A stretch of 64,000 bases of DNA, taken from positions 124,001-188,000 of the forward strand of contig NZ_WWEP01000001.1 of the NCBI RefSeq assembly GCF_009848495.1, given 5' to 3'. The notes under the pieces were generated by a model. That model was not told the DNA's origin, did no database searches, and saw only the letters and a list, made by a program, of their open reading frames with translations. The stretch is from Flavobacterium sp. MK4S-17 (GTDB taxonomy: Bacteria > Bacteroidota > Bacteroidia > Flavobacteriales > Flavobacteriaceae). A program made the position numbers and the translations under genes. Positions 30,842 through 34,835 of the stretch are shown one piece after another. Positions within the stretch are counted from its first letter, which is position 1. Every line of letters begins with the position of its first letter.

Positions 30842-31609
30842 TTACAGGAATATCCCTCCTGATACTTCAATACGTTGCCCGTTAATCCATCGTGCTTCTT
30901 CTGTACATAAAAATGCTACCACCCCGCCAATATCCTGCGGAAGCCCTACGCGGCCTAAGGCTGTAGAACCGGCAATTTGGCTGTTGACTTCTTTATTATC
31001 CCGCACATGGCCACCGCCAAAATCTGTTTCAATTGCGCCGGGCGCTACTACATTGGCAGCTATGCCGCGGGAACCTAATTCTTTGGCAAGATAACGTGTT
31101 AACGATTCAATTGCTGCTTTAGTTGCACCATAGGCTGAAGAACCTTCAAATGAAAAGCGTGCCAACCCTGATGAGATATTAATTATACGCCCACCGTCAT
31201 TAATGTAAGGCAATGCCTTTTGTGTTAGGAAAAAAACACCTTTATAATGAATATTGATAACATCATAAAATTGCTCTTCTGTAGTTTCTGAAAAAGGGGC
31301 ATATAATGCTGTCCCGGCATTATTAATTAAAAAATCGAAGTTAGGGCTGCCTGTTTTTTCCTTTAAGTATGAGGTAACTTCTTTATAGAAATTATCAAAA
31401 GCTGCTATATTACTGGTGTCTAACTGAAAGGCTATGGCTTTTTGCCCAAGCGATTGAATTTCTGCTACAACTTCGTCGGCAGCAGCTTTATTGCTGTTGT
31501 ACGTAAAAACTACATCTATACCTTTTTTAGCAAGGTTTAAAACCATATCCCTGCCCAAGCCACGGCTGCCGCCGGTTACTAATGCTGTTTTGTTTTTTGT
31601 TTCCATCAT
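30842..31609 (-). CDS. Short-chain dehydrogenase/reductase
   Basis: This 255-aa classical SDR has the nucleotide-binding TALVTGGSRGLGRDMV (TGxxxGxG), LINNAGTALYAP, and the catalytic Ser and Tyr-x-x-x-Lys in IINISSGLARFSFEGSSAYGATKAAIESL. The end FLCTEEARWINGQRIEVSGG is also typical. It probably uses NADP(H), judging by the residues after the P-loop, to oxidise or reduce a small carbonyl compound; the substrate is not predictable. ATGs at 31609 and 31606 are both possible. It lies just downstream of the AraC gene and has operator-like repeats in its 105-nt upstream region. Confidence 0.9.
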   Translation of the reverse strand: MMETKNKTALVTGGSRGLGRDMVLNLAKKGIDVVFTYNSNKAAADEVVAEIQSLGQKAIAFQLDTSNIAAFDNFYKEVTSYLKEKTGSPNFDFLINNAGTALYAPFSETTEEQFYDVINIHYKGVFFLTQKALPYINDGGRIINISSGLARFSFEGSSAYGATKAAIESLTRYLAKELGSRGIAANVVAPGAIETDFGGGHVRDNKEVNSQIAGSTALGRVGLPQDIGGVVAFLCTEEARWINGQRIEVSGGIFL

Positions 31610-31671
31610 TTTAAATTTTTAGTTATCAAAAATCAGATGGTACAAAGTTCGGGATAGGATAGGGTAGGTAG

Positions 31672-31711
31672 TTTGCAAACATCAATCTATTATTTGCAAA
31701 ATTCAAATATG
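31672..31711 (-). promoter_or_regulatory. Putative AraC-controlled promoter of the SDR gene
   Basis: Two copies of the palindrome TTTGCAAA (31672-31679 and 31693-31700) are exactly 21 bp apart, a spacing used by AraC-type direct-repeat operators. The second copy is inside TTATTTGCAAAATTCAAA (31690-31707), which recurs almost identically upstream of the AraC gene. A CATATTTG on minus (31704-31711) is one base from the -7 consensus. Confidence 0.5.
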
Positions 31712-31714
31712 GAA

Positions 31715-32650
31715 TTAAGAACGAAAAGCCAAAGGGGTAACAGAAGTCTGCTTTTTAAAGAAGTTGGAAAAATGCGCTACTTCTTCAAAACCTAAACTGT
31801 TGGCTATTTCTGATACATTCCAGTCGGTTTGTTTCAGTAATATTTTGGCCTCCTGCAACATTCTTCCTGAAATTATTTCGGTAGTGGTTTTACCGGTATT
31901 TTCCTTTAATACTTTGTTTAAGTGATTTACGTGTACTGAGAGTCTATCAGCATATTCCTTGGCAGAACGAAGTTGCAATTTTTGGACAGGGGTTTCAATC
32001 GGGAATTGCCTTTCCAATAACTCAATGAACAACGAAATTATCCTTGCCGATGCATTTTGGGTGGAGTGCAAGGCAGAGGCAGGCTGTAACTTTTGTCCCT
32101 GGTGGATTAACTCTACTACATAGTTACGGAGCAGGTCATATTTAAATTCGTAATCAGAGGCAATTTCTTTCTTCATCTTTTTGAATATCAGCATTAATTC
32201 CTCCGCTTCTTCATCACTTATTTCGAATATGGGATACCCACCTGATTTGAATAGGGATAAATCATCCAGCGAAACACCGCTTTTGTTTTTAACCATGAAT
32301 TCATCTGTAAATACGCAAAAACACCCTGACTGGTTTTCATCCTGCGGCACCCAGTGGTATGGAACTTTGGGTGTGGCAAACAGCAATGCATTTTTCTCAA
32401 TTTCAATAACTTTATCGGCATATTCGGCACGGTTGCGCCCACGGATAAGGCTTATTTTATAGTATGCGCGGCGGTTATAAGGCATTACCTTTTTGCGCTT
32501 TACTTCCTGCATTGTTTCAAAAATGTCGAATATATTAAAGTGCCCAATCTCCTTTGTAATGCCGGGCGGGAGCAGGGTAGTAACTTCGTTGCCTGTGTAA
32601 GCTGCCGCTTCCTTATAAAATTGCTCCAAGCTTGTAGTGCCTATATCCAT
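31715..32650 (-). CDS. AraC-family transcriptional regulator
   Basis: This 311-aa protein has an N-terminal cupin-like sensor domain (about 40-180) and a C-terminal AraC-type DNA-binding domain (about 205-310). The second has two helix-turn-helix units: KEYADRLSVHVNHLNKVLKENTGKTTTEIISGRMLQEAK and WNVSEIANSLGFEEVAHFSNFFKKQTSVTPLAF. The LGFEEVAHFSNFFKK signature is characteristic. It is probably a ligand-responsive regulator of the SDR gene that follows on the same strand. A copy of its likely binding motif lies at its own promoter, pointing to autoregulation. The ligand is not known. Confidence 0.92.
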   Translation of the reverse strand: MDIGTTSLEQFYKEAAAYTGNEVTTLLPPGITKEIGHFNIFDIFETMQEVKRKKVMPYNRRAYYKISLIRGRNRAEYADKVIEIEKNALLFATPKVPYHWVPQDENQSGCFCVFTDEFMVKNKSGVSLDDLSLFKSGGYPIFEISDEEAEELMLIFKKMKKEIASDYEFKYDLLRNYVVELIHQGQKLQPASALHSTQNASARIISLFIELLERQFPIETPVQKLQLRSAKEYADRLSVHVNHLNKVLKENTGKTTTEIISGRMLQEAKILLKQTDWNVSEIANSLGFEEVAHFSNFFKKQTSVTPLAFRS

Positions 32651-32665
32651 TTTTGAAAAATGCTT

Positions 32666-32687
32666 TTATTTGTAAAATTCAAAGGTA
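32666..32687 (-). promoter_or_regulatory. Promoter of the AraC gene with shared motif
   Basis: On minus, TACCTTTG (32680-32687) is an exact TAnnTTTG. The motif TTATTTGTAAAATTCAAA (plus strand, 32666-32683) overlaps it and the start of transcription, 16 nt upstream of the ATG. It differs at one base from the copy at 31690-31707. Confidence 0.6.
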
Positions 32688-32858: not shown

Positions 32859-34835
32859 ATGAATTTCGACAGAAAAACGCTGACTAACCAAGAATTACTT
32901 GATTTATATACGAAATTATTAAAACCGCGCCTCATTGAGGAGAAGATGCTTATCCTTATCCGACAGGGAAAAGTTTCGAAATGGTTTAGCGGTATAGGGC
33001 AGGAAGCTATATCGGTAGGAGTAACCGCTGTACTCCGCAAAGACGAATATATTTTACCTATGCACCGCAACCTGGGCGTTTTTACCGGGCGTGATATCCC
33101 GCTTTACAGGCTTGTTTCACAATGGCAGGGTAAAGCCAACGGGTTTACCAAAGGGCGCGACCGTTCGTTTCACTTTGGTACGCAGGAATATAAAATTATA
33201 GGGATGATTTCGCACCTGGGCCCGCAGCTTGGTGTGGCCGATGGTATTGCTTTGGCTCATAAACTGCGTAAGGAAGGCAGGGTAACAGCCGTTTTTACAG
33301 GCGAAGGCGCAACCAGCGAGGGCGATTTTCATGAAGCACTTAATATAGCTGCCGTATGGGAACTGCCTGTACTTTTTGTTGTGGAAAACAATGGGTATGG
33401 GCTTAGTACGCCAACCAACGAACAGTACCGCTGTGAAAATATTGCGGATAAAGGTATTGGCTACGGTATGGAAAGCCATATTATAGATGGCAATAATATA
33501 CTTGAGGTTTATACTAAACTGAATGATTTAGTAAGCTCAATGCGTAAAAACCCAAGGCCGGTACTTGCAGAATTTAAAACATTCAGGATGCGCGGGCATG
33601 AGGAAGCCAGCGGTACCAAATATGTGCCGCAGGAACTTATGGATATGTGGGCTGCGAAAGACCCAGTGGATAATTACAGGAAATACCTTATTACCGAAGG
33701 CGTGCTTACGGAAGAAAAGGATAATGAATTGCGTAAAGAACTGAAAAAGGAGATTGATGAACATTATCAGCGCGCTTCGGCAGAACCTGCCATTGAACCG
33801 ACAGTGGAAGGGGAGCTTAATGATGTATATGCCCCTTATGAATATAAAGAAACAGCCCCCGGCAGCGAAAAGGAGAATGTACGCATGATTGATGCTATTT
33901 CGCAGGGTTTAAGGCAATCTATGGAACGGCATGACAACCTTGTGGTTATGGGGCAGGACATTGCCGAATATGGCGGTGCCTTTAAAATTACAGATGGATT
34001 TGTAGCGCAGTTCGGCAAAGGGCGTGTGCGTAATACACCAATATGTGAGTCGGCGGTTGTGTCGGCAGGTATGGGCTTAAGTATTAACGGTTATAAATCG
34101 GTTATTGAAATGCAGTTTGCCGACTTTGTTTCAACCGGTTTTAATCCTATAGTAAACTACCTCGCAAAAGTACATTACCGCTGGAATGAAAAAGCGGATG
34201 TAGTGGTGCGCATGCCTTGCGGCGCAGGAGTGCAGGCTGGGCCTTTCCACTCCCAAACCAATGAGGCTTGGTTTACCAAAACTCCCGGGCTTAAAGTGGT
34301 TTACCCTGCATTTCCGTATGATGCCAAAGGGCTTTTGGCTACAGCAATAAACGACCCGAACCCGGTAATGTTTTTTGAGCATAAGGCATTGTACCGTAGT
34401 GTATATCAGGAAGTACCAAAGGATTATTACACACTTCCTTTCGGCAAGGCTTCTTTGCTTAAGGAGGGAGAAGATATTACAATTATTACCTTTGGTGCAG
34501 GGGTGCACTGGGCTTTGGAAACATTAGAAAGGAACAAGGATATCAGTGCCGATTTAATTGACCTGAGAACCTTACAGCCTCTTGATACAGAAGCAATATT
34601 TACATCGGTTAGAAAAACAGGCAAGGCAATAGTGTTGCAGGAAGATACAATGTTTGGGGGTGTGGCCAATGATATTGCAGCAATGATAATGGAAGAGTGT
34701 TTTGAATATCTTGATGGCCCTGTAAAACGGGTAGGCAGCCTTGAAAGCGCAATACCTTTTACAAAAGCACTTGAGGAGCAATACCTGCCCAAACAAAGGT
34801 TTGAAAATGCTTTACACGAACTTATGCAGTACTAA
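32859..34835 (+). CDS. Fused alpha/beta E1 of branched-chain 2-oxoacid dehydrogenase
   Basis: This 658-aa protein joins the two E1 subunits that are separate in many bacteria. The alpha part (about 1-330) has the thiamine diphosphate region TGEGATSEGDFHEALNIAAV and VVENNGYGLSTPT. The beta part (about 340-658) begins RMIDAISQGLRQSMERHDNLVVMGQDI and includes GADVVVRMP-type residues, EHKALYRS and LIDLRTLQPLD. It decarboxylates branched-chain 2-oxoacids for transfer to lipoyl E2; a pyruvate substrate is less likely. The fusion is common in Bacteroidetes. The matching E2 and E3 genes are not in the window. Terminator at 34872-34901. Confidence 0.93.
   Translation: MNFDRKTLTNQELLDLYTKLLKPRLIEEKMLILIRQGKVSKWFSGIGQEAISVGVTAVLRKDEYILPMHRNLGVFTGRDIPLYRLVSQWQGKANGFTKGRDRSFHFGTQEYKIIGMISHLGPQLGVADGIALAHKLRKEGRVTAVFTGEGATSEGDFHEALNIAAVWELPVLFVVENNGYGLSTPTNEQYRCENIADKGIGYGMESHIIDGNNILEVYTKLNDLVSSMRKNPRPVLAEFKTFRMRGHEEASGTKYVPQELMDMWAAKDPVDNYRKYLITEGVLTEEKDNELRKELKKEIDEHYQRASAEPAIEPTVEGELNDVYAPYEYKETAPGSEKENVRMIDAISQGLRQSMERHDNLVVMGQDIAEYGGAFKITDGFVAQFGKGRVRNTPICESAVVSAGMGLSINGYKSVIEMQFADFVSTGFNPIVNYLAKVHYRWNEKADVVVRMPCGAGVQAGPFHSQTNEAWFTKTPGLKVVYPAFPYDAKGLLATAINDPNPVMFFEHKALYRSVYQEVPKDYYTLPFGKASLLKEGEDITIITFGAGVHWALETLERNKDISADLIDLRTLQPLDTEAIFTSVRKTGKAIVLQEDTMFGGVANDIAAMIMEECFEYLDGPVKRVGSLESAIPFTKALEEQYLPKQRFENALHELMQY

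Follow-up and report, generated by a model that had tools for sequence, protein, structure and literature searches.

A short motif repeated in front of two neighbouring genes of Flavobacterium sp. MK4S-17 is, judged from sequence comparison, very probably the docking site of the AraC-type regulator that the first of these genes encodes. The window considered here, a stretch of 64,000 nucleotides from a genome of 2.95 Mb, contains the araC-family gene and, head to tail downstream of it on the minus strand and separated from it by 105 bp, a gene for an SDR-family oxidoreductase (Table 1). The reading that we favour, with a rough probability of 0.8, is that the motif is bound by the adjacent AraC protein, that a dimer of this protein activates the SDR gene from a tandem site, and that a single site serves to repress araC. 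Bacteroidota promoters are unlike those of E. coli, and to our knowledge AraC-family operators have been identified in this phylum in few cases.

Table 1. Features of the araC-SDR locus, with positions in the window and approximate positions relative to the predicted transcription start
Feature	Sequence	Window position	Strand	Relative to start	Basis
araC-family regulator gene, 311 aa		31715..32650	minus		Pfam HTH_18 6.6e-19, predicted sensor/dimer fold
SDR-family oxidoreductase gene, 255 aa, predicted target		30842..31609	minus		Pfam adh_short_C2 1.7e-54
Single site, araC promoter	TTTGAATTTTACAA	32670..32683	minus	-8 to +6	Sequence; site in 77/80 loci
-7 box of araC, TTTG common to box and site	TACCTTTG	32680..32687	minus		Sequence; TA position in relatives
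Tandem site, upstream half, SDR promoter	TTTGAATTTTGCAA	31694..31707	minus	-69 to -56	Sequence; tandem pair in relatives
Tandem site, downstream, probably weaker half, SDR promoter	ATTGATGTTTGCAA	31673..31686	minus	-48 to -35	Repeat search; spacing 21
-7 box of SDR promoter	GAACTTTG	31643..31650	minus		Conserved in relatives; 22 nt past tandem pair

The regulator is a member of the AraC/XylS family, having a C-terminal double helix-turn-helix, for which HTH_18 and HTH_AraC (1.2e-10) both pass the Pfam cut-off, and, by its predicted fold, the sensing and dimerization domain. Pfam gave no match in the N-terminal part, and the fold of this part comes from an AlphaFold2 model of middling quality (mean pLDDT 74.7), in which residues 11-191 resemble the regulatory domain of RhaR (5u9e_A; VIA Z 12.1, rmsd 3.1, 146 aligned) and the N-terminal part also resembles that of AraC (1xja_E; VIA Z 9.8, rmsd 3.5, 147 aligned). 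For the SDR protein the top sequence match in the PDB is a carbonyl reductase (9vrz_A, 2.1e-56), a match of little weight since 730 distinct PDB sequences match the SDR. Divergent from araC lies a 658-residue reading frame (32859-34835) that by eye resembles a fused alpha/beta E1 of a 2-oxoacid dehydrogenase.

The two 18-mers with which the preliminary description began, at 31690-31707 and 32666-32683, were placed correctly and agree in 17 of 18 bases; in gene direction they read TTTGAATTTTGCAAATAA and TTTGAATTTTACAAATAA, and the minus-strand reading of the motif is TTTGAATTTTRCAA. Further copies, which that description had thought worth looking for, are absent as exact 18-mers from the genome (38 contigs, 99.92% complete; reversed control 0), but a weaker third copy, revealed by a repeat search of the window, occupies 31673-31686, exactly 21 bp from the core at 31694-31707. 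Could two AT-rich stretches around ordinary TAnnTTTG promoters simply look alike by chance? A search of the window at up to three mismatches, with 2 matches against 1.46 expected, is uninformative and would agree with such an explanation. Yet none of 300 dinucleotide-shuffled pairs of the two intergenic regions was as similar as the observed pair with its one mismatch, the best shuffles reaching two mismatches in 2 of 300, and conservation in relatives (77/80 and 74/79 loci, see below) rules out chance similarity, leaving it extremely improbable.

A lone site carries little information, since single sites with at most one mismatch number 34 in this genome compared with 33 for the reversed control. 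Perfect single sites occur four times, and the two away from araC and SDR fall inside reading frames. For both reasons a wider regulon of single sites in this genome was rejected.

The position of the motif relative to the promoter differs between the two genes. The preliminary description had let both copies overlap or follow the -7 region, which is true of araC, where site and -7 box have TTTG in common, but not of SDR, where CATA and not TAnn stands ahead of the motif's TTTG and the -7 box lies 43 bp from the end of the first motif copy. A sigma-70 promoter scan gave no excess of matches (6 against 6.2 in shuffles), as is expected for promoters of the TAnnTTTG type. Positions relative to the transcription start are predictions that set the -7 box at -12 to -5, the extent described for F. 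psychrophilum (PMC9723704); the start of the SDR gene is thereby predicted near 31638 and that of araC near 32675. Two direct-repeat sites about 21 bp apart, as in a class II operator, are found in the window and in 74 of 79 loci of relatives, and the downstream site, by its distance to the -7 box and with starts being predicted, adjoins the -35/-33 region as class II sites do.

Each 14-bp site consists of two boxes, A (TTTGA) and B (RCAA), separated by roughly one helical turn, a layout that would fit the two helix-turn-helices of one AraC monomer. At the SDR promoter the two sites, which point the same way with a spacing of 21 bp, would hold an AraC dimer that ends next to the -33 region, the downstream site being presumably the weaker one, and the inducer-bound dimer would recruit sigma-A RNA polymerase to this promoter. 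At the araC promoter protein bound to the single site would shut off its own gene, and such autorepression would fit the location of this site over the -7 box and the start. For both genes we infer the direction of regulation from the position of the sites.

Both arrangements are conserved in relatives. A set of named genomes, comprising the best 80 of at least 505 confirmed relatives, nearly all of them Bacteroidota, with 66-82% AraC identity, is weighted towards close relatives and shares loci with the genus set described below (L150 is the same as locus L004); it includes Flavobacterium, Chryseobacterium, Spirosoma, Mucilaginibacter, Niabella, Parapedobacter, Echinicola, Leeuwenhoekiella and other genera. 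The regulator's own promoter carries the site sequence in 77 of these best 80 loci and lacks it in 3, and the tandem pair, at up to three mismatches over the pattern, is kept in 74 of 79 and missing from 5, one locus having ended too early; reversed patterns gave 0 for araC and 0 for the tandem pair in the best 80 loci, and shuffles 0.00125 and 0. Conservation in relatives, on which the preliminary description had staked its proposal, is thus present on the araC side and on the SDR side. Leaving out the 29 loci counted as Flavobacterium gives 48/51 for the araC site and 46/51 for the tandem pair. Among the 74 loci with a tandem pair, 59 have NANNTTTG after a gap of 22 nt and 8 after 21 nt, and in 7 none was found. 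Of the two tandem copies the upstream one is the better conserved (25.4 bits, versus 20.8 for the downstream one, over 14 positions in 74 loci, a difference that is partly a site-picking effect), in line with the weaker downstream half-site described for MtlR (PMC4514859). One locus (L157, JAGRBZ010000033.1) comes from a MAG contig titled Anaerolineae bacterium and has an AraC of 75% identity, the SDR and both operators; it is either a mis-binned Bacteroidota contig or a case of transfer.

At a threshold of E 1e-40 the genus search found AraC matches in 55 of 121 genomes, and the genus locus set comprises 97 rows, that is 96 of 121 AraC matches and one weak further homologue. The first copy, at up to two mismatches, is present past the araC stop in 75 of the 97 rows. 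When the loci are anchored on this copy alone, TTTGA stands exactly 21 nt further on in 52 of 75 (next-best offset in 3 loci) and TANNTTTG exactly 57 nt further on in 58 of 75 (next best in 4 loci, at 56 nt). At 55% identity or more to the window's AraC, 41 of 41 loci are anchored, with the second copy in 38 and the box in 40 (at most one mismatch, here as in the other classes); at 48-55% the numbers are 20 of 23, 18 and 17, and below 48% they are 14 of 33, 11 and 9. Stricter patterns find the araC site in 41/41, 13/23 and 9/33 and the tandem pair in 39/41, 14/22 and 1/33 of the loci in these three classes. Many distant homologues keep the layout but differ in their letters, above all in the B box, where GCAA becomes GTAA or TTAA; part of this comparison was limited to rows whose three anchors had one mismatch at most. 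Residue 293 of the second helix-turn-helix (HTH2) varies together with this box: in the first copy H occurs with C in 120 of 129 rows and Y with T in 19 of 19 (after removal of a single row with N), and in the second copy the numbers are 110 of 129 and 18 of 19. This covariation proves nothing, since on a tree of 149 of the 177 rows (rows without a site within two mismatches of the three anchors and identical proteins being left out) the residue changed only twice and the counts are not independent.

In many paralogues the first copy starts 5 nt before the end of araC, with the stop codon TGA inside the box TTTGA (L044-L049, L053-L058, L060, L061, L068-L072, L076, L077, L081-L085 without exception, L087 and L088). 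Many Flavobacterium loci have a different SDR gene after the operator, with a start like MxLxNNKILITGGASG, and, where visible, a homologue of the window's SDR about 1 kb beyond (L025, L262, L265, L270, L274, L277, L279, L292 and L293).

Tandem sites track the regulator. Across the 121 genus genomes the tandem pattern at up to two mismatches gave 72 sites against 14 for its reversal, a ratio that implies chance matches too. When 69 of the AraC matches of the genus search are used, 30 of 30 perfect sites, 15 of 19 with one mismatch and 5 of 23 with two mismatches lie within 400 bp of an AraC match. Counted by genome, sites with at most one mismatch occur only where the AraC search (E 1e-40 or better) gave a match, in 40 of 55 genomes, and all 66 genomes without a match lack them; a two-mismatch site in seven of the latter is taken as chance. 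That the motif is bound at the two promoters by some regulator other than the adjacent AraC protein is very improbable in view of this absence, and the two boxes per site and the 21-bp direct repeat are an operator layout described for the AraC family (PMC3870299, PMC4514859), even though the covariation of HTH2 with the operator rests on two residue changes. Binding by the adjacent AraC protein is therefore retained as the favoured reading, and the common operator and autoregulation proposed in the preliminary description are well supported by sequence comparison, through conservation at both places and through tandem sites that go with the AraC match.

Six of the 22 tandem sites away from araC were examined in detail, and five of these, with the 22-nt gap to the -7 box, stand ahead of a reductase-like gene. 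In genome G110 a correctly spaced tandem site, some 98 kb away from the closest of the AraC matches used, precedes an SDR that by eye is much like the window's (L232, G110:C34:16700-20700), and a second site, 1.9 kb from araC, also has an SDR. An SDR lies downstream of the distant site in G033 (two mismatches), and the genes at the distant sites in G085 and G024 (two mismatches in the latter) are aldo/keto reductases by likeness to that of L296, which Pfam assigns to this family. In G451, too, a site away from araC has an aldo/keto reductase downstream at the right spacing. The gene upstream in L232 encodes 117 residues and is HxlR-like by eye. The one-mismatch site in G102 (L231) lies inside a reading frame and was rejected as an operator, being taken as chance.

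First copy, second copy and -7 box together make up a 65-bp pattern. Perfect matches to it number 37, in 26 of 395 phylum genomes, with 1 match for the reversed pattern; 13 of the 26 genomes are from other genera, and a perfect match is uncommon in the phylum overall. At up to two mismatches it occurs in 83 of the 121 genus genomes among the matches listed, but with many reversed matches too, and these noisy matches served only to pick sites for inspection. In this genome the pattern at up to three mismatches finds the SDR site and one three-mismatch match against 4 in the control, and so no second target by this test. Inspection covered 38 pattern sites in fetched loci, drawn from the genus and phylum scans rather than comprising all 37 perfect phylum sites. 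A sequence test places the end of an AraC-like gene no more than 450 bp upstream at 31 of the 38, and at 29 the next gene is SDR-like, as judged by eye from the N-terminus. Eight downstream genes were scanned with Pfam; one is an SDR, and the other seven, which belong to the nine that are not SDR-like, encode two aldo/keto reductases (one beginning 330 nt past the site start), an MFS transporter, a hexapeptide transferase, an alpha/beta hydrolase, a cupin and a SnoaL-like protein. The remaining two of the nine are in L295, one of them AraC-family by eye. Reductases dominate downstream of the pattern but are not the rule. Locus L295 (G369:C64:73000-79500) has two perfect 65-bp patterns 1.9 kb apart, one of them followed by the AraC-family-like gene.

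It is conceivable, though we consider it doubtful, that these loci belong to a large undescribed family of Bacteroidota regulators whose target is revealed by a fixed 65-bp promoter sentence of operator, 21-bp repeat, 22-nt gap and TAnnTTTG, that the targets are mostly carbonyl-reducing enzymes (SDRs and aldo/keto reductases) which would amount to a phylum-wide response to carbonyl stress, and that HTH2 reads the B box via residue 293.

How would the single site act on araC? Among the 77 relatives having the site in the named-genome set, 71 have TA 4 nt ahead of its TTTG. In four relatives (L039-L042) manual reading places the site 9-11 nt downstream of a separate -7-like box, imperfect in L039, and the site is therefore not just a promoter element. 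Positive autoregulation, with the araC site activating, would have a counterpart in E. coli, where yqhC mutants that overexpress the targets are described as overexpressing yqhC too (PMC8262776), but it is quite improbable at this promoter, since a site at about -8 to +6 that has bases in common with the -7 box is a place for blocking and not for recruiting polymerase. It could also be imagined that SDR is activated as proposed while the single site of araC loops the DNA to the tandem site about 1 kb away, a distant single site and a tandem pair being the arrangement described for araO2 and araI1-I2 (PMC6018408). Phasing of the two sites gave p of about 0.01 at 10.4 bp in 56 loci, and about 0.02 at 10.6 bp and 0.01 at 10.7 bp in 119 loci; however, these low-p periods differ between the sets, the statistics ignore relatedness, and a period of 10.5 bp gives p of about 0.12 (56 loci), 0.18 (119 loci) and 0.06 (52 loci with inserted spacer). 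Distances from single to tandem site range from 900 to 1295 bp, and the single site forms one unit with a TA-led -7 box in 71 of 77 loci, where repression needs no loop. Looping is on these grounds unlikely, and direct repression of araC from the single site is the reading that we keep.

Neither the motif nor its constant spacing from the -7 box nor its association with mostly reductase genes turned up in the open-access literature searched, subscription literature lying mostly outside that search, and as far as the open-access literature shows the system is new as motif and regulon. In kind it is an ordinary system, a conclusion that is well supported: the known direct-repeat design of AraC-type regulators on a Bacteroidota promoter, unusually well conserved. 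The 65-bp pattern can point to targets of AraC-type regulators from sequence alone, and the base-exact spacing between site and -7 box makes class II activation on the sigma-A polymerase of Bacteroidota readily testable.

Several described systems are similar. YqhC of E. coli is an AraC-type activator of yqhD, encoding an aldehyde reductase, and dkgA, encoding a methylglyoxal reductase (PMC8262776), and it resembles the present regulator by its carbonyl-reducing targets only. These targets and the likeness to YqhC suggest a reactive carbonyl as inducer, and by this analogy our guess is a carbonyl or aldehyde that the reductase removes. The AraC-type rhamnose regulators of Bacteroides, Bacillales and Enterococcus likewise have direct repeats with a 21-bp period upstream of the regulated genes, whereas their motifs are described as unique in sequence and their targets are rhamnose genes (PMC3870299). 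The operator of MtlR, an AraC/XylS regulator of Pseudomonas fluorescens, reads AGTGC-N5-AGTAT-N7-AGTGC-N5-AGGAT, and its blocks (-72/-58 and -50/-36) lie immediately ahead of the -35 region. Both systems have a pair of two-box sites, the location beside the -35 region and a weaker downstream half, but MtlR has a period of 22 instead of 21, another sequence and a promoter with a -35 sequence (PMC4514859). In E. coli AraC, finally, tandem half-sites (araI1-I2) activate the target and the regulator represses its own promoter (PMC6018408), as is proposed here, whereas in the present locus repression would come from a site on the start of araC itself, and the regulator gene runs in the same direction as its target.
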